Assembly (NCBI RefSeq): GCF_003287935.1
Contig: NZ_CP030287.1
Coordinates: forward strand, 8,682,058 to 8,746,057
Length of the DNA: 64,000 nucleotides
Direction: 5' to 3'
Origin: Streptomyces sp. ICC1
GTDB taxonomy: Bacteria; Actinomycetota; Actinomycetes; Streptomycetales; Streptomycetaceae
Every line of letters starts with the position of its first letter. The first letter of the stretch is position 1. The notes beneath the pieces were generated by a model. The model was given only the letters and a program-made list of their open reading frames with translations, did no database searches and was not told the DNA's origin. This document shows positions 3,618-53,508 of the stretch, in pieces. The translations under genes and the position numbers were made by a program.

Positions 3618-3650
3618 CGCCGACGAGCGTCAGATGTGTCTAAGGGACAG
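3618..3650 (+). other. Nextera Read 1 adapter remnant (chimeric join)
   Basis: The 25 bases at 3,626-3,650 match the end of the Nextera Read 1 transposon adapter (AGCGTC plus the Tn5 mosaic end AGATGTGTATAAGAGACAG) at 23 positions. The mismatches are single substitutions inside the mosaic end. The sequence to the left belongs to a histidine kinase in mid-domain and the sequence to the right begins a different operon with its own ribosome binding site, so this is an artificial join. Confidence 0.93.
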
Positions 3651-3665
3651 GCCAAGGAGCGCTCC

Positions 3666-4223
3666 GTGCCCAAGCTGCTCGCCCTCACCGGCAGCCCGTC
3701 CGTCCATTCCCGTACCGCCGTCGTCGCCGACCACGTGCTGCGCCGGCTGAACCACGCCGGGTTCGAGACCGCGCACCTCTCCCTGCGCGAGCTCCCCGCC
3801 GCCGACCTGCTCTCCGCCCGCCGCGGCGAGCCGGAGATCCGGCGGGCCCTCGAAGCCGTCGCCGAAGCCGACGGGGTCGTCATCGCGACCCCCGTCTACA
3901 AGGCCTCGTACACCGGACTGCTCAAGGCCTTCCTCGACCTGCTCCCGCAGGACGGACTGGCCGGCAAAACGGTTCTCCCGCTGGCCACCGGCGGCAGCCT
4001 CGCGCACGTCCTGACCATCGACTACGCCCTGCGCCCGGTCCTCGCCGCGCTCGGTGCCCGGCACGTGACCGCCGGCCGTTTCGTCCTGGACTCCTCCGTC
4101 GAGCGCGGGGACGGCCCCGACCGGCTGCGGCCCGAGGCCGAACTGGACCTCTTCCAGGCCGTCGACGAGTTCGCCGAGGCCCTGCGCGCCGCCCAGGCAG
4201 CCGTGCTCACCACCGCGCACTGA
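3666..4223 (+). CDS. NADPH-dependent FMN reductase (SsuE/MsuE family)
   Basis: A 185-aa flavin reductase of the type that supplies reduced FMN to alkanesulfonate monooxygenases. The flavodoxin-like fold begins LLALTGSPSVHSRTA, the phosphate-binding loop of the NADPH-dependent FMN reductase family, and contains the conserved ATPVYKASYTGLLKAFLDLL dimer/flavin segment. I chose the GTG at 3,666 because an AAGGAG ribosome binding site lies 7 bases upstream (3,653-3,658). That site begins just after the adapter, so the start is intact. It precedes a binding protein/ATPase/permease set, which supports a role in organosulfur assimilation. The monooxygenase itself is not in the window. Confidence 0.88.
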   Translation: MPKLLALTGSPSVHSRTAVVADHVLRRLNHAGFETAHLSLRELPAADLLSARRGEPEIRRALEAVAEADGVVIATPVYKASYTGLLKAFLDLLPQDGLAGKTVLPLATGGSLAHVLTIDYALRPVLAALGARHVTAGRFVLDSSVERGDGPDRLRPEAELDLFQAVDEFAEALRAAQAAVLTTAH

Positions 4224-4338
4224 CCTCCGTACGGACCAGCCGGCCCGTCAGCCCGCCAGTCAGCCCCGTCAGCCCGCCCGTCAGACCCGACCGAACCCAC
4301 CAGTGCGACGCGCCCGACCGGATCGACAAGGAATCGCC

Positions 4339-5370
4339 ATGACCGCAGCCTTCACCACGACCCGCACCTCCCGACGCCAGTTCCTCACCCTGCTCGGCAT
4401 CTCGGCGGCCGCGGTGAGCTGCGGGACGGCGACCGCCACCGGCGCCCGCGGCAGCCAGGTCACCTCCCTGAAGTACCAGGGATCCGTCGGCGCGGTCACG
4501 CTCCCCGAACTCGCCGCCGAACTCGGCTACCTCGCAGACGTCACCCTGGACTGGGTCGGCAACACCATCAGCGGCCCCCAGGACATCCAGTCCGCCGCCA
4601 CCGGCCAGACCCACTTCGGCGGCGCCTTCAACGGCGCGATCGTCAAACTGGCCTCCAGCAAGGCCCAGATCAAGGCCGTCACCTCCTACTACGGCTCCGA
4701 CAAGGACACGTACCTCGGCTACTACGTCCTGGAGGACAGCCCGATCCGCTCCGCCCGAGACCTGATCGGCAAGAAGGTCGGCATGAACACCCTGGGCGCC
4801 CACGCCCAGGCCCTGCTGGACATCTACCTGGAGCGCAACGGCGTCCCCAAGGCCGATGCGGCCAAGGTCGAGTCCCTCGTCGTGCCGCCCGTCAACACCG
4901 AACAGGCGCTGCGGCAGAAGCAGATCGAGGTCGGCGTCCTCAGCGGCGTGCTGCGCGACAAGGCCCTGGCGGCCGGCGGCATCCGCCCGCTGTTCAAGGA
5001 CTTCGAGCTCCTCGGATCCTTCAGCGCGGGCTCGTACGTGATGACCCAGCGCTTCATCAAGGAGAACCCGGACACCGTGCGGGCCTTCACCACGGGCGTC
5101 GCCAAGGCCATCGAGTGGTCCCGTTCCACCCCGCGCGAGGAGGTCATCGCCAAGATGACGGAGATCGTCAAGAAGCGCGGCCGCAACGAGGACACGGCGA
5201 CCCTGCAGTACTGGCGCTCGTACGGGGTCGCCGAGCCCGGCGGCCGGATCGCCGACAAGGAGTTCCAGCTCTGGATCGACTGGCTGGGCGAGCGCGGCGA
5301 GGTCAAGAAGGGGCAGCTGAAGGCCGCCGACCTCTACACCAACGAGTTCAACGGATTCGGGAAGGGCTGA
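4339..5370 (+). CDS. ABC transporter substrate-binding lipoprotein (sulfonate/nitrate/taurine type)
   Basis: A 343-aa extracytoplasmic binding protein. The N-terminus combines a Tat motif (SRRQFLTLLG) with a lipobox-like AAAVSC, so it is probably a Tat-exported lipoprotein. The body is a NMT1/SsuA-like fold (GAVTLPELAAELGYLADVTL, then VGMNTLGAHAQALLDIYLER). The gene is followed after 8 bases by the ATPase and then the permease. With the FMN reductase upstream, an organosulfonate substrate is the best guess, but binding specificity cannot be read from sequence. The leader at 4,240-4,290 contains short cccgtcag repeats. Confidence 0.88.
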   Translation: MTAAFTTTRTSRRQFLTLLGISAAAVSCGTATATGARGSQVTSLKYQGSVGAVTLPELAAELGYLADVTLDWVGNTISGPQDIQSAATGQTHFGGAFNGAIVKLASSKAQIKAVTSYYGSDKDTYLGYYVLEDSPIRSARDLIGKKVGMNTLGAHAQALLDIYLERNGVPKADAAKVESLVVPPVNTEQALRQKQIEVGVLSGVLRDKALAAGGIRPLFKDFELLGSFSAGSYVMTQRFIKENPDTVRAFTTGVAKAIEWSRSTPREEVIAKMTEIVKKRGRNEDTATLQYWRSYGVAEPGGRIADKEFQLWIDWLGERGEVKKGQLKAADLYTNEFNGFGKG

Positions 5371-5378
5371 GGCGCGCC

Positions 5379-6209: not shown

Positions 6210-7105
6210 GCACCACAGTGGAGTCGGCGCAGGTCCAGGAGGCCCGGGTCGCGGAGCCGCCGGTACGCGATCCCGCGCCCCCGGCGGTACGGGAGCCCGC
6301 GCGGCCCCCCGTACGGGTGCCGGCCGCGGCCCTGGCCCTGCGGGTCCTGCGCGTGCTGCGGGCGGTGGCGCTGCGCTCGGCCGCGATCCTCGCCCTGCTC
6401 GCGCTCTGGGAGACGGCGCCGCGGCTGGGGCTCGTCGACGCGACGTTCCTGCCGCCGGTCAGCGAGGTCGCCACGGCGTGGTGGGGGCTGCTGGCCGACG
6501 GACAGCTCGGCGAGCACACCCGGGCCAGCCTGGTCCGCTCCTTCGGGGGCTTCGGCATCGCGGTGCTGGTCGCGGTGCCGCTCGGACTGCTGATCGGCTG
6601 GTACCGGCCGGTGGCCGCGCTGCTCGGGCCGCTGCTGGAGGTGTTCCGCAACACGGCGGCCCTCGCGCTGCTGCCGGTGTTCGTGCTGCTGCTGGGCATC
6701 GGGGAGACCTCCAAGGTCTCGATCGTCGTGTACGCCTGCGTCTGGCCGATCCTGCTGAACACCATCAGCGCGGTGGGCAACGCCGATCCGACGCTGGTGA
6801 AACTGGCGCGGTCCATGGACCTGTCCACGCCGAGGCTCTTCCAGAAGGTGATCCTGCCCGCGTCGGTGCCGGCCATCTTCACGGGCGTCCGGCTGGCCGG
6901 GGCCGTCTCGATCCTGGTCCTGGTGGCCGCCGAGATGATCGGCGCGAAGGCGGGCCTCGGCTACCTGATCAACGCCTCGCAGTTCAACTTCGCGATCCCC
7001 CAGATGTACGCGGGCATCGTCACCATCTCCGCCATCGGGCTGGTCTTCAACCAGGTCCTGGTCGCGATCGAACGCCGCCTGAGCGTCTGGCGCGTCCCGT
7101 CCTGA
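6206..7105 (+). CDS. ABC transporter permease (SsuC/TauC-like)
   Basis: A 299-aa inner-membrane permease with a Pro/Ala-rich cytoplasmic N-terminus (residues 1-40), then about six hydrophobic helices. The cytoplasmic EAA loop, which contacts the ATPase, is the segment LVKLARSMDLSTPRLFQKV. It completes the binding protein/ATPase/permease set. No terminator is obvious in the 30 bases before the next gene, which is transcribed convergently. Confidence 0.92.
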   Translation: MSTTVESAQVQEARVAEPPVRDPAPPAVREPARPPVRVPAAALALRVLRVLRAVALRSAAILALLALWETAPRLGLVDATFLPPVSEVATAWWGLLADGQLGEHTRASLVRSFGGFGIAVLVAVPLGLLIGWYRPVAALLGPLLEVFRNTAALALLPVFVLLLGIGETSKVSIVVYACVWPILLNTISAVGNADPTLVKLARSMDLSTPRLFQKVILPASVPAIFTGVRLAGAVSILVLVAAEMIGAKAGLGYLINASQFNFAIPQMYAGIVTISAIGLVFNQVLVAIERRLSVWRVPS

Positions 7106-7136
7106 CCCGGCGTCCCACCAGCGCGGGTGGGGGGGG

Positions 7137-7328: not shown

Positions 7329-7426
7329 GGAGGCCTGCCTTCCGATTGCTTGCCCTTGCCGTGTGGTGGCGCCGCGGACGAAGGGCGGGGGCACCGGTGA
7401 GCCGAACGGGTGTACGAATCGAGTTT

Positions 7427-8536: not shown

Positions 8537-8562
8537 CGCGCCGCCCCCCCGGGGTCCCGTGC

Positions 8563-10511: not shown

Positions 10512-10565
10512 GACGATTCACCTCGGGCTGATGGGTGGAAGGGGGCTGTCGGGCGGTGCCCGGAG

Positions 10566-13625: not shown

Positions 13626-13640
13626 TGCAGTGACCTCGGG

Positions 13641-15323: not shown

Positions 15324-17606
15324 ATGAGCGAGGCCGTGTCCAGACGCCGGGCCCTGGGCCTCCTCGGAGCGGTGGGCGCCGGCTGCGCGGCCGCCTGCGT
15401 ACCCGCGCCGCCGCCCGGCACGCAGCCCCGCAAGGCGCCCGCCCCCGCCCCCGCCGCGGCGACCCGGGCCGACGTCGGCGCGCGCGTCGACGCCCTGCTG
15501 GAACGGCTCACCCTGGAGGAGAAGACCGTCCTGCTGCACGGGGCGCCGGACCCGGCCCCGCTCGGCCAGGCCGGCTACGTGCCCGGCATCCCGCGCCTGG
15601 GCATCCCCGCGCTCCGCCTCGCCGACGGGCCCGCCGGGGTCCGCGTCGCCAAGCCCGCCACCGCGCTCCCCGCGCCCGTCCTGCTCGCCTCCGCCTTCGA
15701 CCCGGCGCTGGCCCGCGAGTACGGCCGGGTCATCGGCCGCGAGGGCCGCGCGCTCGGCCAGGACGTCCTGCTCTCGCCGATGGTCAACCTCATCCGCACC
15801 CCGTACGCCGGGCGGAACTTCGAGACCTTCTCCGAGGACCCGAAACTGACGGCGGACCTGGTCGCCGAGGTGGTCCGCGGCATCCAGGACGAGGGCCTCA
15901 TCGCCACCGTCAAGCACTTCGCGCTCAACAACCAGGAGAAGGGCCGCGACACCGTCGACGTGATCGCCGCCGAACAGACCCTCCACGAGACGGAGCTACG
16001 GGGCTTCGAGGCCGCGGTGGCCGCCGGCGCGGGCGCCGTGATGGGCGCCTACAACAAGGTCAACGGCGTCTACGCCTGCGAGAACAAGCCGCTGCTGGAC
16101 GAGCTGCTGCGCGGCCGCTGGGGGTTCGACGGCTGGGTGATGTCCGACTGGGACGCCGCCCACAGCACCGTCGCCTCGATCGGCGCCGGACTCGACATGG
16201 AGATGCCCGGAGGCACCCACTACGGCGCCCCGCTGCGCGAGGCGGTGCGCGGCGGCTCCGTCCACGAGAGCGCCGTGGACCTCGCGGTCCGCCGGATCCT
16301 GGTCACGATGGACCGCTTCGGACTGCTCGCGGAGCGGCCCGCCGCCCGGCCCGCCCGGGACCCCGCCGCCGGGGCCGCGACCGCCCGCCGGGTCGCCGTC
16401 GCCGGCGCGGTCCTGCTGCGCAACGAGCGCGCCACGCTGCCGTTGACGGGAGCCGCGGCCCGCTCGGTCGCCGTCATCGGCCCCACCGGGCGGACCCCCT
16501 TCGTCAGTGGCGGCGGCAGCGCCCACGTGGTCCCGGACGCGGCCGCCACCCCCCTCGCCGCGATCCGGCGGCGGGCCGGGGCCGTCTCCACCGTCTCCTA
16601 CGCGCTCGGCGAGGACCTGTACGGGCGCCCGCTCCCCGGGAACCTGCTGAGCCCCGCCGCCGCCCTCGACGACCGGGCGGTGGACGCCGGGCGCACCTGG
16701 ACCCACGAGGGAACCTTCCGGCTCGCGGCCGACGACGAGTGGACCCTGCTCGTCCACTACACCGGGAAGCGGCCGGCCGTCCGGCTCGACGGGGAGGAGC
16801 TGTTCCCCGTGCGGCAGGGCGTGGCCGAGCACTTCGCGGGCGGGCTGCTCGGGTCCGCGCCCGACGGGCTCACGGTGCGCCGGCGCACGCTCGCGCTCAA
16901 GGCGGGCGAGCACCGGCTCGCCGTCACCGCCGAGGGCGGCCCGAGGGGGCAGCGGCTGCGGCTGCGGCACACCACGAGGGCGACCCGGGCCGCCGACCTC
17001 GCCGAGGCGGTGAAAGCCGCCAAGGAGGCCCGCAGCGTGGTCCTGTTCGCCTACGAGGACGCCACCGAGGGCAGCGACCGCACCTCGCTGGGTCTCCCGG
17101 GCGGCCAGGCCGCGCTGATCGAGGCGGTCGCCGCCGCCAACCCGCGCACCACGGTGGTGCTCAACACCTCCTCCAGCACGACGATGCCGTGGCTGCGCCG
17201 CACCGGAGCGGTCCTGCAGATGTACTACCCGGGCCAGGAGGGCGCGGACGCCACCGCCGACCTGCTCTTCGGCGACGTGGACCCGGGCGGCCGCCTCACC
17301 CAGACCTTCCCGGCCGACGAGCGCGCGACCCCGGTCGGCGCGGACCCGGTGCGCTACCCGGGCGTGGGCGGGCGCCAGGAGTACGCCGAGGGCGTCCACG
17401 TCGGCCACCGCTGGTACGACGCGCAGCGGGTGGCGCCGCTGTTCCCCTTCGGGCACGGGCTCTCGTACACGACGTGGCAGTACGAGAAGCTCGTGGTGCG
17501 CCCGGGCGGCCCCCGCGACGGGAGCGGTGGGGGCGGTGGGAGCGGTCACCCTTCTTCGGACCCGGATTCTCGCGCGCTCCTGACCCCACCCACGCGCGCT
17601 ACGTGA
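15324..17606 (+). CDS. GH3 beta-glucosidase, Tat lipoprotein, C-terminus chimeric
   Basis: A family 3 glycoside hydrolase. The N-terminus has a Tat motif (SRRRALGLLGA) and a possible lipobox (GAGC). The catalytic barrel shows LRLADGPAGVR, KHFALNNQE and the nucleophile Asp in VMSDWDAAHS. The second domain begins AAGAATARRVAVAGAVLLRN, and a PA14-like insertion spans roughly residues 430-580 (WTHEGTFRLAADDEWTLLVH). The conserved FPFGHGLSYTTW is present, but the fibronectin-like terminal domain is absent: after about 17,525 the frame changes character (GGGGGSGHPSSD) and runs into unrelated DNA. The ATG at 15,324 has an agggag ribosome binding site. Confidence 0.88.
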   Translation: MSEAVSRRRALGLLGAVGAGCAAACVPAPPPGTQPRKAPAPAPAAATRADVGARVDALLERLTLEEKTVLLHGAPDPAPLGQAGYVPGIPRLGIPALRLADGPAGVRVAKPATALPAPVLLASAFDPALAREYGRVIGREGRALGQDVLLSPMVNLIRTPYAGRNFETFSEDPKLTADLVAEVVRGIQDEGLIATVKHFALNNQEKGRDTVDVIAAEQTLHETELRGFEAAVAAGAGAVMGAYNKVNGVYACENKPLLDELLRGRWGFDGWVMSDWDAAHSTVASIGAGLDMEMPGGTHYGAPLREAVRGGSVHESAVDLAVRRILVTMDRFGLLAERPAARPARDPAAGAATARRVAVAGAVLLRNERATLPLTGAAARSVAVIGPTGRTPFVSGGGSAHVVPDAAATPLAAIRRRAGAVSTVSYALGEDLYGRPLPGNLLSPAAALDDRAVDAGRTWTHEGTFRLAADDEWTLLVHYTGKRPAVRLDGEELFPVRQGVAEHFAGGLLGSAPDGLTVRRRTLALKAGEHRLAVTAEGGPRGQRLRLRHTTRATRAADLAEAVKAAKEARSVVLFAYEDATEGSDRTSLGLPGGQAALIEAVAAANPRTTVVLNTSSSTTMPWLRRTGAVLQMYYPGQEGADATADLLFGDVDPGGRLTQTFPADERATPVGADPVRYPGVGGRQEYAEGVHVGHRWYDAQRVAPLFPFGHGLSYTTWQYEKLVVRPGGPRDGSGGGGGSGHPSSDPDSRALLTPPTRAT

Positions 17607-17772
17607 CGAGAATGCTGGCCAGACCTGCGGCCCGCAGAGCCCAGGATGTCATCGATCTTCGCTGATCCGACATCAAGAAGACCCTGCCCGAACAGGCACA
17701 GTGACCCCTCCCAGGGGTGACCCACCCTGCCGGTCAGTAAGTCCTCTGACAGGTATCTGTAGTAGTCGCCAG
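17546..17772 (-). pseudogene. DUF2716-like protein, C-terminal fragment
   Basis: The minus strand reads SPYPAGDYYRYLSEDLLTG then GHPWEGSLCLFGQGLLDVG, the end of DUF2716-family proteins as I recall them. No start or N-terminal part is present. Both sides join unrelated genes (GH3 on the left, the dehydrogenase stop on the right), so this is a block of about 230 bp inserted by assembly. Confidence 0.55.
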
Positions 17773-20930: not shown

Positions 20931-20938
20931 CGCAGGTA

Positions 20939-21060
20939 AGGCGGAGCGGGAGGGGGCGGAGCAGAACGGGACGGGGCGGAGCGGGAGGAGGCGGAGCGGG
21001 AGGAGGCGGAGCGGGAGGAGGCGGAGCGCGCCGTGGCGGCGCGCCCCGCCCCCGGAGGGG
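20939..21060. repeat. Tandem 15-base GC repeats
   Basis: Three to four near-perfect copies of cggagcgggaggagg precede the surE stop on the other strand. Likely compressed or expanded in assembly. Confidence 0.7.
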
Positions 21061-23990: not shown

Positions 23991-24311
23991 GCCGCACCGC
24001 GACGGCCCCGCCGCCGCGCTGTACGCCTACGGCGTCAAGGGCAAGGGCGTCTGCGGTCCGACGACGGCCGCCGACGGCAAGCCCGACGTCCAGGCCGGTT
24101 CGATGGACATCGCCAAGGTCGAGATCCTCGGCAACGTCTACGACGAGTTCAACGTCGAGAAGTACGCCGCGCTCCAGCCCGACCGGCTGGTCACCAACAC
24201 CTGGGACGGCACGTACTGGTACGTGCCGGAGGCCTCCAAGGACAAGATCTTCAAGCTCGCCCCGGCCGCCGCGGTCAGCGTGGGCCGCGACGTCTCGATG
24301 GACAAGGCCTT
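23990..24311 (+). pseudogene. Siderophore ABC binding protein, internal fragment
   Basis: About 105 codons: AALYAYGVKGKGVCGPTTAA, DGKPDVQAGSMDIAKVEILG, ALQPDRLVTNTWDGTYWYVP, ASKDKIFKLAPAAAVSVGRD. This is the FepB/FecB-like lobe of an iron-siderophore lipoprotein. Signal peptide and C-terminus are missing. The frame is fused at 24,311 to the spacer after a 23S rRNA gene. Confidence 0.78.
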
Positions 24312-24339
24312 CAGAACTAACACAGTGGACGCGAGCAAC

Positions 24340-27456
<3,117 letters not shown>

Positions 27457-30906: not shown

Positions 30907-30940
30907 TGTCCTCTATACCCCTCCCGGCCCTGACCAGTAC
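30906..30940 (-). other. Possible degraded adapter at a join
   Basis: ctgtcctctataccc followed by ctcccggccc resembles the Read 2 adapter in the same orientation as the one at 14,032, with about 15 of the first 24 bases matching without gaps. It sits exactly where a plus-strand gene and the minus-strand parB both lose sense, so a join is likely even though the match alone is weak. Confidence 0.5.
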
Positions 30941-31785
30941 CTGGTGCCCTCCCCGCAGGGGCTGGCGGTGGCCGGCGGGCGGTAGGCCGCCGGGTCCACC
31001 CACGCCGGCGCCGGGGGCTGGGCCTGGGCCGGGGCCTGGGCCTGGGCTGCCGCGGGGCGGGTGCGCTGGCGCGGGGGGTTAACGGCGTTAACGGCTTCCT
31101 CCGCCGCCGGCGCCTGGTCCTCCTGGGGGAGGCGGCCGATGCGGCGGGCCGGTTCCACCTTCAGCTCGCCCGTCTCCACCTTGTCCTGGAGTTCCGGGGT
31201 GAGGTTGAGGAGGGTCAGGCGCTGGGAGACCCAGGCGGGCGTCTTGCCGAGCCGCTTGGCCACCTGGGCCTGGGAGCCGTGGACCTCGACGAGCTCCTGC
31301 AGCGCGCGGGCCTGGTCCATGGGCGCCACGTCGACGCGGTGGACGTTGGCGATGAGGGCCGACTCCAGGATGTCCGCCGCCGAGGTGGAGAGTGAGTCGT
31401 TGACGTGGATGTGCATGGTCCGCAGGCCGGCCCGCTGGGCCGCCGCCAGGCGCCGGTTGCCGTCGATGACGACGTACGGGGCGCGGCCCAGGCCGTCGGT
31501 GTGGCCCGGGTGGGCCTCCATGAACGCCATCCGGGTGGCGACCGCCAGCGGCTGGAGCTGGCCGCGGACGGTCAGGGACGCCGCGAGCTCGTCGAGCTCG
31601 GTGAGGTCCTCGCGCAGGTTGAAGGGGTTGTGGGCGAGGGCTTCGATGGGAACTTCGGACGGGGGGACCACGCCGGAGGTGGGGGCGCCGGTCGCCTCGG
31701 CGATGGCGGTGCGACGGGAGCTGATGCCGACGGGCTGGGCACGGGCGAAGGACGGCGAGACTCCGAGTTTGTCGGCCTTGCTCAT
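30913..31785 (-). CDS. parB: ParB-family partition protein (C-terminus possibly cut)
   Basis: A 290-aa partition protein. The ParB/sulfiredoxin core is IEALAHNPFNLREDLTELDE, VIDGNRRLAAAQRAGLRTMH (CTP-binding region), followed by a KorB-like HTH (GSQAQVAKRLGKTPAWVSQR). The C-terminus is Pro/Ala/Gln-rich (AQAQAPAQAQPPAPAWVDPA) and stops inside the adapter-like sequence, so its end may be artificial. The ATG overlaps the parA stop by 4 bases. Codons for VNAVN contain one of the two 13-bp palindromes described separately. The arrangement resembles Streptomyces linear plasmids rather than the chromosomal parAB next to gidB. Confidence 0.9.
   Translation of the reverse strand: MSKADKLGVSPSFARAQPVGISSRRTAIAEATGAPTSGVVPPSEVPIEALAHNPFNLREDLTELDELAASLTVRGQLQPLAVATRMAFMEAHPGHTDGLGRAPYVVIDGNRRLAAAQRAGLRTMHIHVNDSLSTSAADILESALIANVHRVDVAPMDQARALQELVEVHGSQAQVAKRLGKTPAWVSQRLTLLNLTPELQDKVETGELKVEPARRIGRLPQEDQAPAAEEAVNAVNPPRQRTRPAAAQAQAPAQAQPPAPAWVDPAAYRPPATASPCGEGTRYWSGPGGV
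31079..31091. promoter_or_regulatory. Candidate partition-site palindrome, copy 1
   Basis: TTAACGGCGTTAA, six-base arms around one base, inside the 3' part of parB. An identical 13-mer lies at 34,158-34,170. The sequence is AT-rich for this genome and uses the rare GTT codon, so it is unlikely to be chance. Confidence 0.5.
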
Positions 31786-34170: not shown

Positions 34171-34259
34171 CACGGGAGCCTTGGCTGGTCTGTTGTGACG
34201 GGTGGGGGGTGTGGGGGGCGGAGGGCCGGGAAGGCCGGGCGGGCACGTACCATTGCGGC

Positions 34260-37228: not shown

Positions 37229-37444
37229 GGGTTCCCTCCCCCTGTTCCGCTCCCGCGCGCGCGGGAGTCACCGTCATTCTGCCCTCGCTCCCACCTGTCC
37301 GAAAAGCGCTGTCAGGGCTGTCGGTCTTCGCTGCCTGCGGCTTTAACGGGCGTTTAGCCGTGGGGAGTCCACTCCGGGTGTCTGCCGCAGGGGTGCGGCC
37401 GGATTCGTTTCACGCCGGATCGGGGATCCGGCGTCACTTGGGGA
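37229..37444. other. Intergenic stretch before MITE copy 2
   Basis: About 215 bases with two small hairpins (ctcccgcgcgcgcgggag near 37,250 and cgccggatcggggatccggcg near 37,420) and no supported ORF. It probably contains the promoter of the small secreted peptide. Confidence 0.5.
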
Positions 37445-37586
37445 AGTTGACACGATGCCCCCGGCACGGCACCTCGCCGCGTTGTCGGACCACCGAAGTA
37501 CGTCCAGTACAAGCGGCGGCCCTCCGCCTTGCGAGGCACCGCACCGGACACCGCGACCCGGCAAACCTTCCCGGCCACAGCACTAG
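37445..37586. mobile_element. MITE-like element, copy 2 (left end degenerate)
   Basis: The right 120 bases match copy 1 (ccggcacggcacctcgccgc through cacagcactag), but the left terminal repeat is eroded (ggggaagttgacacgatg). It is therefore an older or damaged copy about 420 bases from copy 1. Confidence 0.8.
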
Positions 37587-39300: not shown

Positions 39301-40734
39301 ATGCGGCGGCGTGGCACGGGAGCGCGGAAGGAACCACGGAAGGAACCGCGGGAGCGGCAGGGCCTGGTGGCGCAGTTGCGCCGGCCGCCGGGGGGCCGGG
39401 ACGCCCGGATCATGCTGCTCGCCCAGTTCCTCGACCGCGCCGGTACGGGAGTGTGGGCCGCCGCCTCGGTCCTGTACTTCACCTTCGTCCTCGGCCTGGA
39501 CGCCGGCCGGATCGGCCTGCTGCTGGGCGCGGCCGCGGTGGCGGGCATCGCCGGGTCGCCCCTGGCGGGCCACCTGGCCGGCCGCTTCCCGGTGCGCTCC
39601 CTGCTGATCGGCTGTCACCTCCTGCGCCTGGGCACGCTCGGCGCGCTGCTCGTGGTCACCCGCTTCGACGTGCTGCTGCCCGTGGTCGCGGTCACGTACC
39701 TGGGCGACCGGGCGGCCAAGACCCTGGAGATGCTCTTCGCCACGCGGGTGGCGGGTGAGCGGCGGTCCACCTACCAGGCGCTGTCGCGCAGCACGGCGAA
39801 CGCCGGCTACGCCCTCGGCGCGGGCCTCGCCGCGGCCGGTCTCGCCGTCGGGACCCGCGAGGCCTACCAGGTGCTGATCCTGGCCAACGCGGTCTCCTTC
39901 CTCGTGGCCGCCGCGCTCGTCCGGCGCACCCGGGGGCCGCGCGGCCCCGGACGGGTGGCCGCGGGCACCGGGGACCCGGACGCGAAGGCCGCGGCAGCGG
40001 AGGCGGAGGCGGAGGCGGTGGCAGCGGCCCGGCCGTCGGGCGCGCCGAGTCCGTGGCGGGACCGGGGGTACCTGCGCTTCGTCCTGCTGGACATCCCGAT
40101 GCACCTGGACGACTCGATCCTCGCCGTCGGCCTGCCGCTGTGGCTGGTGGACCACACCGATGCGCCGCACGCCCTGGTCCCGGCCTTCCTCGTGATCAAC
40201 ACCGTGCTCGTCGTCGTACTCCAGCTGCGCGTGTCGGCAGCGGTCGAGGGGCCCCGCCAGGCCGCGGGGGCCGTCTTCCTGTACGGGCTGACGATGTGCG
40301 CCTGTTGCATCCTCCTGGCCCTCACCGCGGGGGCCGGAGCCGGGGCCGCGTCGGTCGCGCTCCTCGCCGCGGCGGTGCTGGCCACCGCGGCGGAGCTGAT
40401 GCGCTCGGTGAGTTCCTGGGAGCTGGCGGTCTCGCTCGCCCCCGCGCGGGCGCGGGCGTCCTACCTGGGCGTGGCGGGCATGGCCCAGTCGGTCCAGAAG
40501 TCCGCCGGTCCGCTGCTCCTGACCGGCGTGATGGTGGCCGGCCCGGCCGGCTGGCTCGCCCTCGGCGCGGCGGTCGCGGCCCTGTCGGCCGTCCAGCGCC
40601 GCTCCGCCGTACGCCGGCTGGACACCCTGACCGCCCTGTCCGCCCCGCCCGCCCCCACGAGGCCGGCACCGGGGGACGGGCGGGGCGGACAGCCCAAAAG
40701 CCCTTCCCCTCCCGCCAGCCGTCCGGAACGATGA
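39301..40734 (+). CDS. MFS efflux transporter
   Basis: A 477-aa transporter with about 12 helices (MLLAQFLDRAGTGVWAAASV, AGHLAGRFPVRSLLIGCHLL). The central cytoplasmic loop is long and Ala/Glu-rich (AKAAAAEAEAEAVAAARPSG). ATG start with ggagg upstream. Two strong palindromic operators precede it, so it is probably repressed by a MarR-family protein encoded elsewhere. The next gene starts within its stop (ATGA), so the two form an operon. Confidence 0.87.
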   Translation: MRRRGTGARKEPRKEPRERQGLVAQLRRPPGGRDARIMLLAQFLDRAGTGVWAAASVLYFTFVLGLDAGRIGLLLGAAAVAGIAGSPLAGHLAGRFPVRSLLIGCHLLRLGTLGALLVVTRFDVLLPVVAVTYLGDRAAKTLEMLFATRVAGERRSTYQALSRSTANAGYALGAGLAAAGLAVGTREAYQVLILANAVSFLVAAALVRRTRGPRGPGRVAAGTGDPDAKAAAAEAEAEAVAAARPSGAPSPWRDRGYLRFVLLDIPMHLDDSILAVGLPLWLVDHTDAPHALVPAFLVINTVLVVVLQLRVSAAVEGPRQAAGAVFLYGLTMCACCILLALTAGAGAGAASVALLAAAVLATAAELMRSVSSWELAVSLAPARARASYLGVAGMAQSVQKSAGPLLLTGVMVAGPAGWLALGAAVAALSAVQRRSAVRRLDTLTALSAPPAPTRPAPGDGRGGQPKSPSPPASRPER

Positions 40735-43771: not shown

Positions 43772-43859
43772 GTCCCGCTCAACGACCGCCCGGCGGGAAG
43801 GTCCCGCCCGTAGATCAGCGCGAGCCGTCGCCCGTGCCCGCCGCCCCGCCCGCGGGTGC

Positions 43860-44173
43860 TTGGTGCTGGTCCGCGGGTCCCGGGTGGGGGGGCGGGCACG
43901 GGGTGCGCGGCGGCGGCCAAGGCGGTGGCTGCGGCCAGGGCGGGCGTCGGGCGGCGGCGGCGGCTGCGGCTGCGGCCAAGGCGGCCAGCGGGCAGCGGCT
44001 GCACGGCGGCTGCGGCCAGGGCGGGCAGCGGGCAGCGGCTACATGGCAGCTACGGCCAGGGCGGGCAGCGGGCGGCGGCTGCGGCCAGGGCTGCGGCGGC
44101 GCGGCGGCTGCGGCCAGGGCGGGCGGCGGCTACGTGGCGGCTGCGCGACGGCTGCGGCCAGGGCGGCCGGCGG
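43860..44173. repeat. Tandem ggctgcggccagggcgg repeats
   Basis: About 310 bases made of imperfect 30-35-base units (cggctgcggccagggcgggc, agcgggcagcgg) downstream of the LacI gene. Predicted ORFs here are artefacts of periodic composition. It may act as a terminator region; copy number may be mis-assembled. Confidence 0.75.
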
Positions 44174-45208
44174 CTACGCCGAGTCGCGGACGACCAGTTC
44201 CGGCTCGAAGAGCACCGCCGCGGGCTCCGGGGCGGCCGCGCCCGACACCCGGTCCAGCAGGAGGCGGACCATCTCCGCCGCCATGTCCTCCACCGGCTGA
44301 CGGACCGTCGTCAGCCGGGGACGGGCCGCCACCGCCGCGCCGGAGTCGTCGAAGCCGACCACCGCGACGTCCTGCGGCACGCGCCGGCCGTGTTCGCGCA
44401 GCACCAGGCAGGCTCCCTGCGCCATCAGGTCGTTCGCCGCGAACACCCCGTCCAGGTCCGGTTGTTCCGCCAGCAGCGCACGCATCGCCTGTTCACCGCC
44501 GTCCAGCGTGAAGTCCGCCTCGGCCACCCGCACCGGGCCGCCGGCCAGCGCCTCCCGGAAGCCCGCCACCCGCTCCCGGCTCGCCGGCACGTCCGCCGGT
44601 CCGCCGATCACCGCGAGGCGCCCGCAGCCGCGGGCCAGCAGGTGCCGCGCCGCCAGCGCCCCGCCCTCGCGGTGGCGCAGGTCGACCCAGTCCAGCCCCA
44701 CCGGTGGCGCCGGCCGCGCGAAGAGCACCGCGGGCAGCCCGGCGGCCGCGAGCAGCCCCGGCAGCGGGTCGCGGCCGTCCGTGGTGACGAGCAGCGCACC
44801 GTCCGCGCCGCCCTGGGTGAGGTACGCCAGCACCTGTGCGCGGTCCTCCTGCCCGTCGGCGAACATCAGCACCGGGTGCACGCCGCGCGGGCGCAGCGCC
44901 CGTACGACCCCGCTCACCACCCGCCCGAAGAAGGGGTCCTGGAACACCCGGTCGGCGTCGGCGCCCGCGCCCGAGACCACCAGCGCCACGGCCCCCGACC
45001 GGCGGGTCACCAGGGAGCGGGCGGCCCGGTTCGGCACGTACCCGGTCTCGGCGACGGCCCGCTGGACCGCCTGCTGGATGCCCGGGTCCACGTTGCGCAC
45101 ACCGTTGACCACGCGCGACACCGTGGCCCGTGACACCCCGGCGGCACGCGCCACGTCTTCCAGGGTCGGGGCCGTCCCCGTGCCGGTGCCCGTGCTCGAT
45201 CCGTCCAT
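44174..45208 (-). CDS. LacI-family repressor
   Basis: A 344-aa sugar-responsive repressor. HTH: TLEDVARAAGVSRATVSRVV, with the hinge VPNRAARSLVTRRSGAVALV. The periplasmic-binding-like domain ends VPQDVAVVGFDDSGAAVAAR. It lies on the same strand as the GH3 glycosidase immediately upstream, so it probably regulates it. Confidence 0.9.
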   Translation of the reverse strand: MDGSSTGTGTGTAPTLEDVARAAGVSRATVSRVVNGVRNVDPGIQQAVQRAVAETGYVPNRAARSLVTRRSGAVALVVSGAGADADRVFQDPFFGRVVSGVVRALRPRGVHPVLMFADGQEDRAQVLAYLTQGGADGALLVTTDGRDPLPGLLAAAGLPAVLFARPAPPVGLDWVDLRHREGGALAARHLLARGCGRLAVIGGPADVPASRERVAGFREALAGGPVRVAEADFTLDGGEQAMRALLAEQPDLDGVFAANDLMAQGACLVLREHGRRVPQDVAVVGFDDSGAAVAARPRLTTVRQPVEDMAAEMVRLLLDRVSGAAAPEPAAVLFEPELVVRDSA

Positions 45209-45231: not shown

Positions 45232-46800
45232 TCAGACCTCGATCGCCGCCCGGAGCGGCAGGTCACCCGCGCTGCGCCCGGCCAGCACCTCGAACCGGCC
45301 CGGCTCCGTGGTCCAGCCCCTTCCCCCCGGTGACCAGTGCTGCAGGGCTCGCGCGGGGATGCGTACGTACGCCGTCGCCCGCTCCCCCGGCTCCGCCTCC
45401 GCCGCCGCCCAGCCCGCGAGCCAGCACACCGGCCGCTCGACGGCCGAGTCCGGCCGGGACAGGTGGAGTTGGACGATCTCGCGGCCGCTCCGGGCACCGG
45501 TGTTGCGCAGGGTGACCGGGATCTCGAAGTCCCCGCCGGGGGCCGGCTCCGGCATGCCGATCCGCTCGAACTCCCAGGTGGTGTAGCCGAGTCCGTGGCC
45601 GAACCAGTACGCGGGCCGCGCGGCGCCCGGGCGCAGCCAGGCGCGGTGGCCGATGTGCAGGCCCTCCTCGTACGCGAGCCGGCCGTTCGTGGGGTGCGTG
45701 GTGCGCACGGGGGCATCGGTGAGGGTGGCGGGCCAGGTGGTGGGGAGCCGCCCGCCGGGCTCTGCGCGGCCGAGGAGGACGTCGGCGAGGGCGTGCCCGG
45801 CCTCTTGGCCGGGGAACCAGGTGAGGAGGACGGCACCGACGGCCGCGCGCCAGGGCAGCTCGACGGGGCCGCCGGAGTTGACGACGACGATGGTACGGGG
45901 GTTGGCGCTGGCGATCTCCGCCACCAACTGGTCCTGGGGCGCGGGCAGTCGGAGCGTCTCACGGTCGAAGCCCTCGGACTCCGCGCCCTCCGTGGTGCCG
46001 ACGACCACGACGGCGGCGTCGGCCGCCCGGGCCGCGGCCACGGCGGCGGCGAGCGCCTCGGCGGGCCCGGCCGCGGGCGCGGCGGCCGTGAGGACGGTGG
46101 CCCGGCCGGTGCCGGGCGCGAGTTCGCGCCGTGCGACCACGCGCACGGGCCGGCCGGCCGTGAGCGGGATCCGGGCCGTGTGCTGCGGCGGGCGGACGTG
46201 GACGACCGCCGGATCGTCGGTCTCGGGCGGGAACTCGCCCTCGACCAGGGCCGTTCCGTCGACGGTGAGGCGCAGGGCTCCGAAGCCGCCGAGACCGAGG
46301 GTCCAGGGGCCGGTCGTGTCGGGGTGGAGCACGGCGGAGAGTTCGACGGTGTGGGCACCGGGCGGAAGTTCGGGCTCCAGCACGCGCCCGGAGGGCTGGT
46401 GCAGGGAGCGCAGCACCGCGCCGGCGGCGTCGAGCACGCGCAGCCGCACGCCCGGGGCCCCGCCCTCCGGGTCGCGGGCGTGCCGCGCGCCGAGCGGCTC
46501 CGGGCCCCCGGCGCCCTCGGGCGCGGGACCGGGCTCGTACCCGATCCGGACGTGGGGCGGCAGCGCCTGCCGGAGCCCGTCGAGCGGGCTGACCACGCGG
46601 TGCGGGAACACCCCGGAGCTCCCGCCGCCCTGGACGCGGGGGGCGTCGGCGTGCACCCCGATCACGGCGAGGCGGTTCAGCGCGCCGGGCTCCAGGGGCA
46701 GCGCGCCACGGCTCTCCAGCAGCACGAAGCTCGCGGCGGCCGCCGCGCGCAGCTCCCGGCGGAGGGCGGTGCCGGCCTCCGGGCCGGCGGCGGTGCGGGC
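45232..46800 (-). CDS. GH3 beta-glucosidase, C-terminal half
   Basis: The second domain of a family 3 glycosidase (ALRRELRAAAAASFVLLESR, GALPLEPGALNRLAVIG), a PA14-like insertion, the FGHGLGYTTWEFERIG motif and the fibronectin-like end (FEIPVTLRNTGARSGREIVQ) are present, about 500 residues. The N-terminal catalytic barrel with the SDW nucleophile motif is missing. Upstream of 46,800 the frame stays open to about 47,110 but runs into EAGTAA- and ALAPAPALA-type repeats. The active enzyme needs the missing half. Confidence 0.8.
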   Translation of the reverse strand, partial: ARTAAGPEAGTALRRELRAAAAASFVLLESRGALPLEPGALNRLAVIGVHADAPRVQGGGSSGVFPHRVVSPLDGLRQALPPHVRIGYEPGPAPEGAGGPEPLGARHARDPEGGAPGVRLRVLDAAGAVLRSLHQPSGRVLEPELPPGAHTVELSAVLHPDTTGPWTLGLGGFGALRLTVDGTALVEGEFPPETDDPAVVHVRPPQHTARIPLTAGRPVRVVARRELAPGTGRATVLTAAAPAAGPAEALAAAVAAARAADAAVVVVGTTEGAESEGFDRETLRLPAPQDQLVAEIASANPRTIVVVNSGGPVELPWRAAVGAVLLTWFPGQEAGHALADVLLGRAEPGGRLPTTWPATLTDAPVRTTHPTNGRLAYEEGLHIGHRAWLRPGAARPAYWFGHGLGYTTWEFERIGMPEPAPGGDFEIPVTLRNTGARSGREIVQLHLSRPDSAVERPVCWLAGWAAAEAEPGERATAYVRIPARALQHWSPGGRGWTTEPGRFEVLAGRSAGDLPLRAAIEV

Positions 46801-47100
46801 TGCGGGGCGGGCGGCGGTGCCGGCCGCGGCGCGGGCGGCGGTGCCGGCTTCCGGGCCAACGGCGGTGTCGGCGGCGGTGCCGGCTTCCGGGCAGACGGCG
46901 GTGCCGGCTTCGGCGCCGGCACCGCCGTCGGCCTCGGTGCCGGCTTCGGTGCCGGTTTCGGGATCGCCCTGCCGTGCGGACGGACCGAGCGACGAGCCCG
47001 CGTCGCGGACCTGGGCCAGGGCCGGGGCCGGGGCCAGAGCCGGGGCATCGGCCGGGACCGCGGCTGGGGCCAGGGCATCGGCCAGGGCCGGGGCCAGGGG
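46800..47100. repeat. Low-complexity gccggcttcgg/gccggggcc repeats
   Basis: About 300 bases of 15-20-base imperfect repeats where the GH3 catalytic domain should be. They encode different repeats in each frame and look like an assembly collapse. Confidence 0.65.
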
Positions 47101-47158
47101 AACCCGTCAGCGGTAGATTCACGCCCGTACGGGCGTGAATCTACCGCTGACGGGTTCC
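47099..47158. repeat. 60-bp perfect palindrome
   Basis: Thirty-base arms beginning ggaacccgtcagcggtagat and meeting at gcccgt/acgggc without any spacer. It lies between the broken GH3 frame and the methyltransferase gene. A loop-free palindrome of this length is unstable in cells and typical of a fold-back artefact, though a bidirectional terminator is possible. Confidence 0.8.
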
Positions 47159-47355
47159 GGGCGGAACGCGCATGTCGAGCGCGTGCCTGCCGTACGCGAT
47201 GCCGGGCCCATGTCCGGATCTTTGTGGGTTCTGCCAGTACGGCAGTCCGCCGGGCCCCGTGGAGACTGCCAGACAGGGGCCGCGGCACGTCCAGGGTGCG
47301 GGGTGCGGGCCGCGCGGCGGTCAAGAGCCTTGCGAAGCATGGGGGATGACAGAGC
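47159..47355. other. Leader upstream of the methyltransferase
   Basis: About 200 bases without a supported gene. A ttctgccagtacggcag inverted repeat lies near 47,230. Confidence 0.4.
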
Positions 47356-48642: not shown

Positions 48643-50205
48643 ATGTCGAAAAGTGGGAACAATGTGACCGGCGGCAAGCGCCGAATGCCGGGTTGGAAGC
48701 GGGCGTTGCTGATTCTCGGTTCGCTCGTCGCGACCTTCGCCCTTGTCATCGGCTCGCTGTTCACCTGGCTCTACACCGGGGCCAAGGTGTCCACCGTCGG
48801 CGAGGTGGACTTCCACAACGCCCTCGCGGTGCCGCCCCTCGCCGCGTCCACCGTGGACGCGGACGGGACCCGCGTCTTCGACCTGCGCATGCAGGCGGGG
48901 GAGACCGAGTTCACCCCCGGGAGCAAGACCCCGACCTGGGGGTTCAACGGCAGCTACCTCGGCCCCACCCTCCGCGCGGCGAAGGGCGAGAAGGTCCGGG
49001 TGAAGGTGGCCAACACCCTGCCCGAGGAATCCACCGTCCACTGGCACGGCATGCACCTGCCCGCCGCGATGGACGGCGGCCCCCACCAGATGGTGCCGGC
49101 GGGCGGCAACTGGGCCCCCGAGTGGACGATCGAGCAGCCGGCCGCGACCCTCTGGTACCACCCGCATCCGCACGGTGAGACCGAGACGCACGTCCAGCGC
49201 GGCCTCGCGGGCCTGTTCCTGCTGGACGACACGGCGTCGGCGGCCCTGCCCCTGCCCAAGTCGTACGGGGTGGATGACATCCCGGTCATCGTCCAGGACG
49301 TGACCTTCGACGGCGCGAAGTTCGACCACGGCCACAAGCTGATGCGCAACGTCGGCTTCCTCGGCGACCGGACGATGGTCAACGGCACGCTGGACCCGTA
49401 CGTCACCGTCCAGGACGAACTGGTCCGGCTGCGCCTGCTGAACGCCTCCACCGCCCGCGTCTACACCTTCGGCTTCGACGACGGCCGCACGTTCCGGCAG
49501 ATCGCCTCGGACGGCGGCCTCCTCGAAGCCCCCCACACGGCCGACCGCCTGGTCCTCTCGCCGGGGGAGCGCGCGGAGATCGTCGTACGGATGAAGCCGG
49601 GCGAGCGGACGGTCCTGCGCTCCTACCCCCTGGACGCCGGCCTGGACTTCTGGAACCAGCGCTTCGGTGGCGGCGACGACTCCTTCGACGTGATGCAGCT
49701 GCGCGCGGCGCCCACCCTGAGGCCGTCGGCAGAGCTGCCCGGGGCGCTGGTGGCATCGGCGCTCCCCACCGGTGAGGACTCGGCGCGCAACCGCTTCTTC
49801 GAGCTCAAGGCGTCCGGCATCAACGGTCGGAAGATGGACATGTCCCGGGTGGACGAGACGGTCACCCGCGGCACGGCCGAGACCTGGACCCTGCGCAACG
49901 ACGACGGGATGCCGCACAACTTCCACGTCCACGACGTGCAGTTCCGCATACTCGACATCAACGGCGTGGCTCCGCCGCCGCCGTTGCGCGGGCCGAAGGA
50001 CACCGTCTTCATCCCGTCCGGTTCGACGGTCCGCATCGCGCTGCGCTTCGACGGTCCCGCGGACCCGGATACCCCGTACATGTTCCACTGCCACCTGCTG
50101 TACCACGAGGACAAGGGCATGATGGGCCAGTTCGTGGTGGTCGAACCGGGCCAGTCGGCGGGCACCCTGAAGCCCCCGCCCTCGACCGGCTCACACCAGC
50201 ACTAG
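48643..50205 (+). CDS. Multicopper oxidase
   Basis: A 520-aa three-domain copper oxidase with an N-terminal membrane anchor (ALLILGSLVATFALVIGSLF). All four copper-ligand motifs are present: TVHWHGMHLP, LWYHPHPHGE, MPHNFHVHDVQF and MFHCHLLYHEDKGMMG, so types 1-3 copper sites should form. The relatives are CueO/bilirubin-oxidase-like enzymes that oxidise Cu(I) or phenols outside the cell. ATG at 48,643 (an in-frame ATG two codons upstream is an alternative). Confidence 0.92.
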   Translation: MSKSGNNVTGGKRRMPGWKRALLILGSLVATFALVIGSLFTWLYTGAKVSTVGEVDFHNALAVPPLAASTVDADGTRVFDLRMQAGETEFTPGSKTPTWGFNGSYLGPTLRAAKGEKVRVKVANTLPEESTVHWHGMHLPAAMDGGPHQMVPAGGNWAPEWTIEQPAATLWYHPHPHGETETHVQRGLAGLFLLDDTASAALPLPKSYGVDDIPVIVQDVTFDGAKFDHGHKLMRNVGFLGDRTMVNGTLDPYVTVQDELVRLRLLNASTARVYTFGFDDGRTFRQIASDGGLLEAPHTADRLVLSPGERAEIVVRMKPGERTVLRSYPLDAGLDFWNQRFGGGDDSFDVMQLRAAPTLRPSAELPGALVASALPTGEDSARNRFFELKASGINGRKMDMSRVDETVTRGTAETWTLRNDDGMPHNFHVHDVQFRILDINGVAPPPPLRGPKDTVFIPSGSTVRIALRFDGPADPDTPYMFHCHLLYHEDKGMMGQFVVVEPGQSAGTLKPPPSTGSHQH

Positions 50206-50226
50206 GACGTCCCTCACGGCCTGGCC

Positions 50227-50260
50227 GGCCGGGTGCGCGCTCACTGCCGTGCACCCGGCC
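50227..50260 (+). terminator. Hairpin after the multicopper oxidase
   Basis: Ten-base arms ggccgggtgc and gcacccggcc around a 14-base loop, 20 bases after the stop. Confidence 0.6.
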
Positions 50261-50458
50261 CGGAAGGGTGGGGCGGCACCATGGGGGGAACAGAACGGAC
50301 AGGCCGAGCGTCGGCGCATCCGACGCAGACGCAAGCTCCGCCTGAAGGAAGCCCTGCTCGGCAGGTCCCGGGGCGGCCTGACCAGCAAGATTCATCTCGC
50401 CGCGGACCGCAGAGGCCGGCGGCCCCGCTTGGTTCTGACCGCCGGGCGGGCCGGGGAC
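50250..50458 (+). pseudogene. IS5-type transposase fragment
   Basis: The frame contains LGRSRGGLTSKIHLAADRRG and RPRLVLTAGRAGDE, the catalytic-core segment of IS5-family (IS470-like) DDE transposases found in Streptomyces. It is about 70 codons, truncated at both ends, and is fused at about 50,459 to an insertase gene, so the present frame encodes an artificial fusion. Confidence 0.75.
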
Positions 50459-51833: not shown

Positions 51834-52928
51834 TCAGAGCTCCACCGTCACTCCGTCCCTCGACGACTTGCGCGCCGCCTCCAGCACGTCCAGGCACTGC
51901 GCCGCCTCCAGCGCCGTGACCGGGGCCGGCCCGCCGCCGCGCAGCGCGGCGGCCACGGCCGCGTAGTACGCCGGGTAGTCGCCCGGCACCGTCGGCACCG
52001 GCAGGCCGCCGCCGGTCAGCGGGGACTCCCCGGAGCCCAGCCGGCCCCACAGGTGCTCGGGCTCCTCGCCCCACGTGCGGTCGGGGTCGCCCGGTCGCAG
52101 CCCGTCGCGCAGTGCGCCCTCCTGGGGGTCGAGCCCGTACTTGACGTAGCCCGCGCGGGAGCCGAGCACCCGGAACCGCGGCCCCAGCTGGGCCGTGGTG
52201 GCGCTGACGTACAGGTGCGAGCGGACCCCGCTCGCGTGCGTGACGGCGATGAAGGTGTCGTCGTCGGCCTCCGCGCCCGGGCGGCGCACGTCGGCCTCGG
52301 CGTAGACCCGTACGGCCGGGCCGAACAGCACCAGCGCCTGGTCGACGACGTGGCTGCCGAGGTCGTACAGCAGCCCGCCGATCTCCTCCGGCGCGCCCGA
52401 TTCCCGCCAGCCGCCCTTGAGCTGCGGGCGCCAGCGCTCGAAGCGGGACTCGAAGCGCTGGACGTCGCCCAGCTCGCCGTCGGCGAGGAGGCGGCGCAGC
52501 GTGAGGAAGTCGTTGTCCCAGCGGCGGTTCTGGAAGACGGACAGGAAGGTCCCGGTCCGGTCGGAGAGCCAGGCCAGTTCGCGCGCCTCGGCGGCGGTGG
52601 CGGCGAGCGGCTTGTCCACGACCACCGGGACGCCGGCGGTGAGGGCGGCGGTGGCGAGCGGGACGTGCGTCTTGTTGGGGGAGGCGATGACGACCAGGTC
52701 GAGGGCGGGGGACCGGCCCCGGTCCCACAGCTCGGCGGCGCTGCCGGTGATCCGGACGTCCGGGTGGGCCTCGCGCACCTGGGCGGCGCGGCCCGGGTCC
52801 GAGGTGACGACGGTGTCGAGGACGAGGCCTTCGGTCGCGGACACGAGCGGGGCGTGGAAGACGGAACCGGCGAGTCCGTAGCCGATGAGTCCGACGCGGA
52901 GGGGGGTGGCGGGGGCGGTGTCGTTCAT
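51834..52928 (-). CDS. Gfo/Idh/MocA-family oxidoreductase
   Basis: A 364-aa NAD(P)-dependent sugar or polyol dehydrogenase. The Rossmann fold is LRVGLIGYGLAGSVFHAPLV, the nicotinamide site includes VDKPLAATAAEARELAWLSD (the EKP-like motif as DKP), and the C-terminal sheet contains GGLLYDLGSHVVDQALVLFG. It is divergent from the ROK repressor, with a palindromic operator between them. I start at the ATG at 52,928 rather than upstream codons because the operator precedes it. Confidence 0.9.
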   Translation of the reverse strand: MNDTAPATPLRVGLIGYGLAGSVFHAPLVSATEGLVLDTVVTSDPGRAAQVREAHPDVRITGSAAELWDRGRSPALDLVVIASPNKTHVPLATAALTAGVPVVVDKPLAATAAEARELAWLSDRTGTFLSVFQNRRWDNDFLTLRRLLADGELGDVQRFESRFERWRPQLKGGWRESGAPEEIGGLLYDLGSHVVDQALVLFGPAVRVYAEADVRRPGAEADDDTFIAVTHASGVRSHLYVSATTAQLGPRFRVLGSRAGYVKYGLDPQEGALRDGLRPGDPDRTWGEEPEHLWGRLGSGESPLTGGGLPVPTVPGDYPAYYAAVAAALRGGGPAPVTALEAAQCLDVLEAARKSSRDGVTVEL

Positions 52929-52940
52929 GGCGACCACTTT

Positions 52941-52955
52941 GGCAACAGTGTTGCC
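52941..52955. promoter_or_regulatory. Operator palindrome between MocA and ROK genes
   Basis: ggcaac and gttgcc arms around agt, in the 41-base gap between the two divergent start codons, the likely binding site of the adjacent ROK repressor. Confidence 0.6.
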
Positions 52956-52969
52956 TAAGTGCAAGGAGG

Positions 52970-53466
52970 GTGGACAATGGGCAGGTGGACAGGGGTAGCG
53001 GTAGCGGTGGCGGGGACAAGGGCGGCGGCGTGAACCTGCCGCTGCTGCGCGGGCACAACGACGCGCTGGTGCTGGACCTGCTGCGCGCCGCCGGCCCCGG
53101 GGGCCTGGGCCGCGCGGACCTCGCGGACCGTACGGGGCTCACCCCGCAGGCCGTCAGCAAGATCACGGCACGGCTCCGGGGCGACGGGCTGGTGGCCGAC
53201 GCCGGGCGCGAGGCGTCCACGGGCGGCAAGCCGCGCACGCTGCTGAAACTGGTGCGGGAGGCGCGGTACGCGGTCGGGGTGCATCTGGACCGCGACGAGC
53301 TCACGGCGGTACGGGTGGACCTCGCCGGTCGCGTCGTCGCCGACTGGCGGGGTCCGCTGGACTTCGGGGCCGGTCCGGACGTGGCGGTGGAGGAGGCGGT
53401 ACGGGCGGTCCATCGGGTGTGCGGTGGGTCGGGTGGTGTGGGTGGTGGTGGTGTCGGTGGGCCGGC
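52970..53466 (+). pseudogene. ROK-family repressor, cut at an adapter
   Basis: A GTG start opens a winged HTH (LRGHNDALVLDLLRAAGPGG, LTPQAVSKITARLRGDGLVA) and the first strands of the ROK sugar-kinase-like domain (YAVGVHLDRDELTAVRVDLA). After residue 150 the sequence becomes GGSGGVGGGGVGG from a G/T-rich run and then enters the Nextera adapter at 53,467. About 60% of a normal ROK repressor is missing. A GTG at 52,985 is an alternative start. Confidence 0.8.
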
Positions 53467-53508
53467 CATGCCTAGTCTCGTGGGCTCGGGAATGTGTATA
53501 AGAGACAG
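53467..53508 (+). other. Nextera i7 index plus Read 2 adapter and mosaic end
   Basis: CATGCCTA (index, reverse complement of the one at 14,066), then GTCTCGTGGGCTCGG and the mosaic end ATGTGTATAAGAGACAG: 40 of 42 bases match. The same library index in opposite orientation shows both come from one sequencing library. Confidence 0.98.

Follow-up and report, generated by a model that had tools for sequence, protein, structure and literature searches.

Why should a chromosome deposited as a single contig carry the adapters of an Illumina sequencing library? The window considered here, a stretch of 64,000 nucleotides from Streptomyces sp. ICC1 (G000:C1:8682058-8746057 within a one-contig genome of 9,034,319 bp), contains four Nextera adapter sequences, which we number sites 1 to 4 from left to right (Table 1). 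A preliminary description of the window had held that they could not be genomic, that two of them share an index, that each interrupts a gene in mid-frame, and that the genes on either side of them are not neighbors in the organism. We conclude, with a probability of about 0.95, that the window belongs to an Illumina Nextera draft assembly, and that the contigs of this draft were joined directly to one another, most likely largest first and with no spacers, to give the 9.03-Mb sequence that was deposited. The window is an assembly artefact and not a natural stretch of chromosome, and its peculiarities are not biology.

The identity of the adapters was established by rematching against the standard Nextera oligonucleotide and adapter sequences. 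The four places and match counts previously given (23/25, 28/33, about 53/59 and 40/42) were all reproduced. Site 1 consists of a Read-1 arm followed by the mosaic end and matches at 23/33 positions over the full oligonucleotide and 23/25 over its 3' 25 bases; a second, poorer Read-1 copy (24/33) lies there in the opposite direction, and it seems that at this point one adapter tail runs head-on into another. Sites 3 and 4 do share one i7 index, TAGGCATG at the former and its reverse complement, CATGCCTA, at the latter. At three or fewer mismatches the 19-nucleotide mosaic end occurs three times in the window, as against 0 in 100 shuffles; that of site 2 has four mismatches, and at four or fewer no fifth site was found in the window. 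Over the full 33- to 34-nucleotide adapters the mismatches number 10, 5, 3 and 2 at sites 1 to 4, and the best of 10 first-order Markov shuffles had 12. Site 1 is the weakest on this scale, its support being a mosaic end with two mismatches. With both arms, the index and P7 present, and with a chance origin of the four sequences excluded by the shuffles, the view that they are adapter and not genomic stands. When plasmids were searched with the sequence surrounding site 3, there were two partial matches only, covering 12% and 1% of the query.

Adapter remnants of this kind are spread over the whole genome. We counted 162 sites resembling the mosaic end at three or fewer mismatches (74 forward and 88 reverse), as compared with one (0 + 1) for a reversed-pattern control. 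The sites listed individually were 100 of the 162, some two-mismatch sites being left out, and densities and spacings drawn from that list were not relied on; no exact mosaic end was among the matches listed. In 816 kb of fetched sequence there were 67 sites at three or fewer mismatches (two with one, 47 with two, 18 with three and none exact), and the last 400 kb held 55 at four or fewer, where a Markov null of equal size held none. To these 55 we added 30 from the genome-wide list and surveyed the arms of the resulting 85 sites: 40 have a Read-1 arm and 21 a Read-2 arm, eight continue into N, and in 16 no arm can be recognized, so that the mosaic end is joined to a Nextera arm (at least nine matching bases) at 61/85. 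The index TAGGCATG is exact at 6/21 sites with a Read-2 arm (five more start with TAGG and 10 do not) and at three of the six with a P7 pattern; a sample index is thus shared, as in Nextera contamination. At three of the 85 sites the P7 end continues into poly-A, which is what reads show after passing the end of a fragment.

Runs of N accompany these remnants: in 800 kb, nine of 10 lie within 20 bp of a mosaic-end site, and it looks as if recognizable adapter copies had been masked. We rejected the idea that the runs are scaffold gaps, since they are 26-47 nucleotides long and nine of 10 stand beside an adapter, and masking fits better. Also set aside was the notion that a short spacing of 55 kb at 924 kb represents an adapter within a true contig; its flanks match G014, a relative whose genome is in one contig, at 5.11 and 1.31 Mb, and it looks like a false join.

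Are the sequences on either side of the four sites nevertheless true neighbors? False adjacency was judged from synteny in relatives and not from reads. In G014 the left and right flanks match at 4.36 and 7.40 Mb for site 1 (3.0 Mb apart), at 4.72 and 6.58 Mb for site 2 (1.9 Mb), at 6.58 and 1.01 Mb for site 3 (5.6 Mb), and at 2.87 and 6.41 Mb for site 4 (3.5 Mb); hence at 4/4 sites the flanks are not neighbors, as in concatenated contigs. Those of site 4 are likewise apart in G004, G007, G009 and G012. The G014 matches nearest a site do not always lie at the adapter, and the one to the left of site 1 ends at window position 1774.

The boundaries are more closely placed by the near relatives, the drafts Streptomyces sp. 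ISL-43 (G041) and H27-H1 (G042), which are about 90% identical (94% and 93%, respectively, in the EF-G-like protein; 86-94% in most DNA blocks and 76-78% in a few). In both, the flanks of all four sites lie on different contigs, and a single ISL-43 contig covers 125-3600, including position 1774. Homology ends at 3600 (ISL-43) or 3590 (H27-H1) and starts at 3651 (H27-H1) around site 1; it stops at 10568 in ISL-43 and resumes on another contig at 10750 around site 2; and it stops in ISL-43 and resumes in H27-H1 at 14038 and 14085 around site 3 and at 53465 and 53510 around site 4. At 6/8 flanks the edge lies within 7 bp of the adapter, the exceptions being the left of site 1, where it falls at the degraded opposed copy (3590-3600), and the right of site 2 (10750). 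Past the block edges the relatives' fetched DNA continues, in most cases by kilobases, and shows no match to the adjoining part of the window; three of their stretches (L167, L177 and L178) end within 1.5 kb owing to their own contig ends. Draft fragmentation of the relatives is not the general cause of the stops in homology, because the left of site 2 lies 307 kb into a 430-kb ISL-43 contig and the left of site 1, which in ISL-43 has a contig end 1.4 kb off, has none closer than 85 kb in H27-H1.

The EF-G-like gene at site 4 provides an example. The ISL-43 DNA that ends about 90 bp before this gene matches G000:6640654-6643753, 2.1 Mb away in the deposit, where the homology is followed by AT-rich sequence, a stretch that we take to be P5-like, and then adapter. 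In H27-H1, the DNA after the gene matches window 37646-39145, which the deposit puts 14 kb to the left of the gene. We note in passing that G000:C1:6643754-6643876 is AT-rich with a poly-T run at the contig end (the window is 72% GC) and is apparently read-through beyond a P5 adapter.

These comparisons bear on the most durable of the alternatives, namely that the contigs were correctly ordered, on a reference or a mate-pair scaffold, that only the gap filling was bad, and that the flanks are true neighbors. Sites such as 53467-53508 do hold just tens of false bases, as a badly filled gap would, and sequences matching window 51.8-53.4 kb (75-79%) and 56.9-57.4 kb (69-74%) occur in the same order, 11-26 kb apart, in nine relatives (G004, G005, G006, G007, G009, G011, G012, G014 and G015). 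The latter matches are probably to paralogues, however, since 56.9-57.4 kb is matched at 87-91% elsewhere (G041 C116 and G042 C77). Moreover, in H27-H1 the DNA of 37.6-39.1 kb comes after that of 53.5-56.3 kb, the opposite of the deposit, and distances of 1.9-5.6 Mb in G014 and different contigs in ISL-43 and H27-H1 at 4/4 sites leave correct ordering very improbable.

The preliminary description was right that the joins at the four adapters are false, but it understated the matter, for the stretches between adapters are broken as well. The window is made up of blocks, each of which matches the relatives at a different position; the first are about 3.5 kb long and the last about 3.15 kb. There are about 20 breaks, spaced 3.2-3.5 kb apart, and only four of them have an adapter at four or fewer mismatches. 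The sequences left and right of the break at 7105..7121, for instance, match G014 at 7403356 and 4717783. Because breaks recur in this way, allowing for the four adapters alone would not rescue the window.

Two further features are those of contigs set end to end. First, the exact maximal repeats of the final 400 kb have a nearly fixed length: with words that occur 20 times or more excluded from the direct repeats, we found 12 pairs of 127 nucleotides, eight of 128, two of 126 and three of 130, and none longer. Exact repeats capped near 127 nucleotides are the look of de Bruijn contigs assembled at k = 127, and here such overlap repeats of fixed length stand at contig ends, five of them in the window (exactly 127 nucleotides at the window start). 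One pair reaches the last base of the genome, 27491-27617 matching its final 127 nucleotides. Second, the 9.03 Mb contain one 23S ribosomal RNA (rRNA) gene, that of the window, whereas in four relatives with one-contig genomes full-length copies number seven in G014, six in G012, six in G005 and five (plus two fragments) in G007, so that the rRNA genes are collapsed. The surrounding segment, 24309-27618, matches two other Streptomyces genomes at 99-100% identity and is probably a collapsed repeat contig.

In what order were the contigs written? The 20 break intervals of the window admit a series of never-increasing lengths with zero violation (from 3490 to 2924 in one solution), a fit achieved by 0/500 random and 0/500 permuted sets (median violations of 8409 and 194 bp, respectively). 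When the 400-kb tail was divided into nine successive bins, the minimum adapter spacing was, in order, 3466, 2950, 2441, 2096, 1715, 1499, 2725, 3204 and 658. We infer that the size ordering extends over the whole genome, the strict fit covering the window only and using hand-chosen intervals.

Several points weigh against these conclusions. The break intervals were chosen by hand, and several of them are wide (as much as about 430 bp). The same lengths taken in reversed order miss by only 33 bp per step, and what the monotonicity test hence establishes best is a smooth trend, the direction and exact form of which are less firmly shown. A smooth-curve fit to adapter spacing in the 400-kb tail gave 0.49 and did not separate from its controls (permuted, mean 0.43 and maximum 0.53; jittered, mean 0.45 and maximum 0.52); with no useful separation to be had, this model of the tail spacing was dropped in favor of the synteny break intervals. 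Bins seven and eight (2725 and 3204) interrupt the fall in minimum adapter spacing and are read as spans of several contigs. One N run of the ten, G000:C1:9012087-9012133, has no adapter nearby. Finally, at any single unmarked break, synteny with other strains is by itself also compatible with a real rearrangement.

This last point leads to the possibility that the chromosome has truly been rearranged on a large scale relative to its relatives and that adapter contamination is coincidental. Streptomyces chromosomes do rearrange, and the genomes compared belong to other species. Yet many breaks fall within a few base pairs of an adapter or of a 127-nucleotide repeat, they follow one another at shrinking intervals of 3.2-3.5 kb, and the 23S gene is single-copy, which together make rearrangement even less probable than correct ordering. 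Least probable of all, to the point of being negligible, is real DNA in the form of Tn5-type transposon ends, as from a laboratory Tn5 insertion library: the 19-nucleotide mosaic end is a derivative of the Tn5 end, but here the mosaic ends bear Illumina arms, an index, P7 and poly-A, the sites consist of tens of bases with no transposon and with 0/67 copies exact in the fetched 816 kb, and the flanks come from different loci.

How might a concatenated draft have come to look like this? Short inserts were read through into adapters carrying i7 TAGGCATG. Clean adapter copies then seem to have been removed by trimming or replaced with N, the ones that survived being those with read-end errors. 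At low coverage, contig ends would be extended into adapter by the read-through reads, so that adapter would mark some contig ends. The contigs were at last written end to end, most likely largest first, as a single sequence.

Table 1. Junctions, contig ends and related features of the window (columns: feature; window positions; strand; remarks)
Junction 1 (site 1), Nextera Read-1 adapter	3618-3650	+	with degraded opposed Read-1 copy 3594-3626; junction span 3594..3650
Junction 2 (site 2), reverse-complement Read-1 adapter	10566-10598	-	28/33; then GC-rich filler to ~10750
Junction 3 (site 3), reverse-complement Read-2 adapter + i7 TAGGCATG + P7 start	14032-14090	-	53/59
Junction 4 (site 4), i7 index (CATGCCTA) + Read-2 adapter	53467-53508	+	40/42
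Contig end	1..124	.	last 124 bases of exact 127-nt repeat with G000:4811919-4812045; ISL-43 homology starts at 125
Inferred junction without adapter	7105..7121	.	block 3651-7105 (H27-H1 C96) versus 7121-10568 (ISL-43 C51)
Inferred junction without adapter	17510..17620	.	homology of both relatives ends at 17508-17510; upper limit assumed
Inferred junction without adapter	20933..21035	.	short ISL-43 C51 block versus H27-H1 C165 block
Inferred junction (coarse)	24020..24309	.	precedes 23S rRNA contig; homology to relatives
Probable collapsed 23S rRNA contig	24309..27618	-	23S at 24341-27463; 127-nt repeat 27491-27617
Inferred junction without adapter	30911..31026	.	homology limits
Inferred junction without adapter	34215..34216	.	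homology limits
Contig end	37332..37459	.	128-nt exact repeat with G000:8917539-8917666
Inferred junction without adapter	40626..40696	.	homology limits
Inferred junction without adapter (coarse)	43788..44178	.	homology limits
Inferred junction without adapter (coarse)	46769..47190	.	homology limits
Inferred junction	50204..50453	.	near multi-copy repeat
Contig end	56518..56644	.	127-nt exact repeat with G000:8807624-8807750 and 8947891-8948017
Inferred junction without adapter	59807..59820	.	homology limits
Contig end	62871..62997	.	127-nt exact repeat with G000:9019580-9019706

The claim that every site cuts a gene in mid-frame was only partly borne out. To the left of site 1 is a histidine-kinase ATPase fragment that looks cut; on both sides of site 3 the genes look cut, the left one after 38 residues with a start like that of a signal peptide and the right one encoding a protein with a membrane segment, neither with a Pfam match; and to the left of site 4 a MarR-type regulator looks cut. 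At least one gene thus looks cut at each of sites 1, 3 and 4. An FMN reductase to the right of site 1 (GTG at 3666) looks whole, however, as does a gene to the left of site 2 that starts at 10511 and has a sub-threshold phage-tail match. As for the remaining flanks, an ABC permease on the right of site 2 has an end that runs into the filler, and the EF-G-like gene on the right of site 4 has apparently lost its first few codons.

Other repeats were seen as well. Those at 62752-62997 and 50270-50458, which are located at contig ends, have several copies in the relatives; by appearance they look like transposase fragments, no family search having been made. At 56334-56523 and 36867-37031 is an interspersed element of about 165-190 bp with long terminal inverted repeats (CTAGTGCTGTGACCGG...), and a 200-base stretch containing one copy folds at -121 kcal/mol. 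There are at least 11 further copies (92-97%) in G000 and many in H27-H1 and ISL-43, and the element looks like a family of the miniature inverted-repeat transposable element (MITE) type, the name being suggested by these features.

What follows for users of this genome? It scores 100% complete with 1.19% contamination in one contig, and it would pass for a finished chromosome despite its false joins. Gene order in the window is meaningless beyond about 3.5 kb and, judging from the adapter spacing, beyond still shorter distances towards the end of the genome. Clusters from the window that exceed about 3.5 kb are not to be trusted, and claims of operons, clusters, synteny or islands from this genome should be discarded or limited to single contigs. 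More tentatively, and we think this rather doubtful, reference genomes could include a recurrent class, so far undetected, of size-sorted, spacer-free concatenations deposited as one-contig genomes. Were this so, the class could be detected without raw reads, by a shrinking spacing of breaks, a ceiling on exact repeats at the assembler's k and a single rRNA operon, and any gene clusters deduced from its members would be false.

How, then, does the window compare with known systems? The ends of natural Tn5 and IS50 are related in sequence to the mosaic end, but the sites differ from natural insertions in that no element lies between the ends and the flanks come from different loci. The resemblance to Nextera read-through contamination is close, extending to the mosaic end, the Read-1 and Read-2 arms, a recurrent i7 index and P7 followed by poly-A; unlike it, the copies here are all imperfect (0/67 exact in the fetched 816 kb) and stand at the joins of a nominal one-contig chromosome. 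Adaptors are counted among common contaminants in the available text of PMC10898089. Contigs written out as one concatenated sequence for viewing are described in the available text of PMC3630013, and no size-sorted concatenation of contigs was among the literature matches listed. With a concatenated-contig pseudochromosome the genome shares the lack of spacers, repeats capped at about 127 nucleotides, one 23S gene and broken synteny; the pseudochromosome of PMC3630013, as far as its available text goes, orders its contigs by a reference genome, whereas here the order appears to be based on size.

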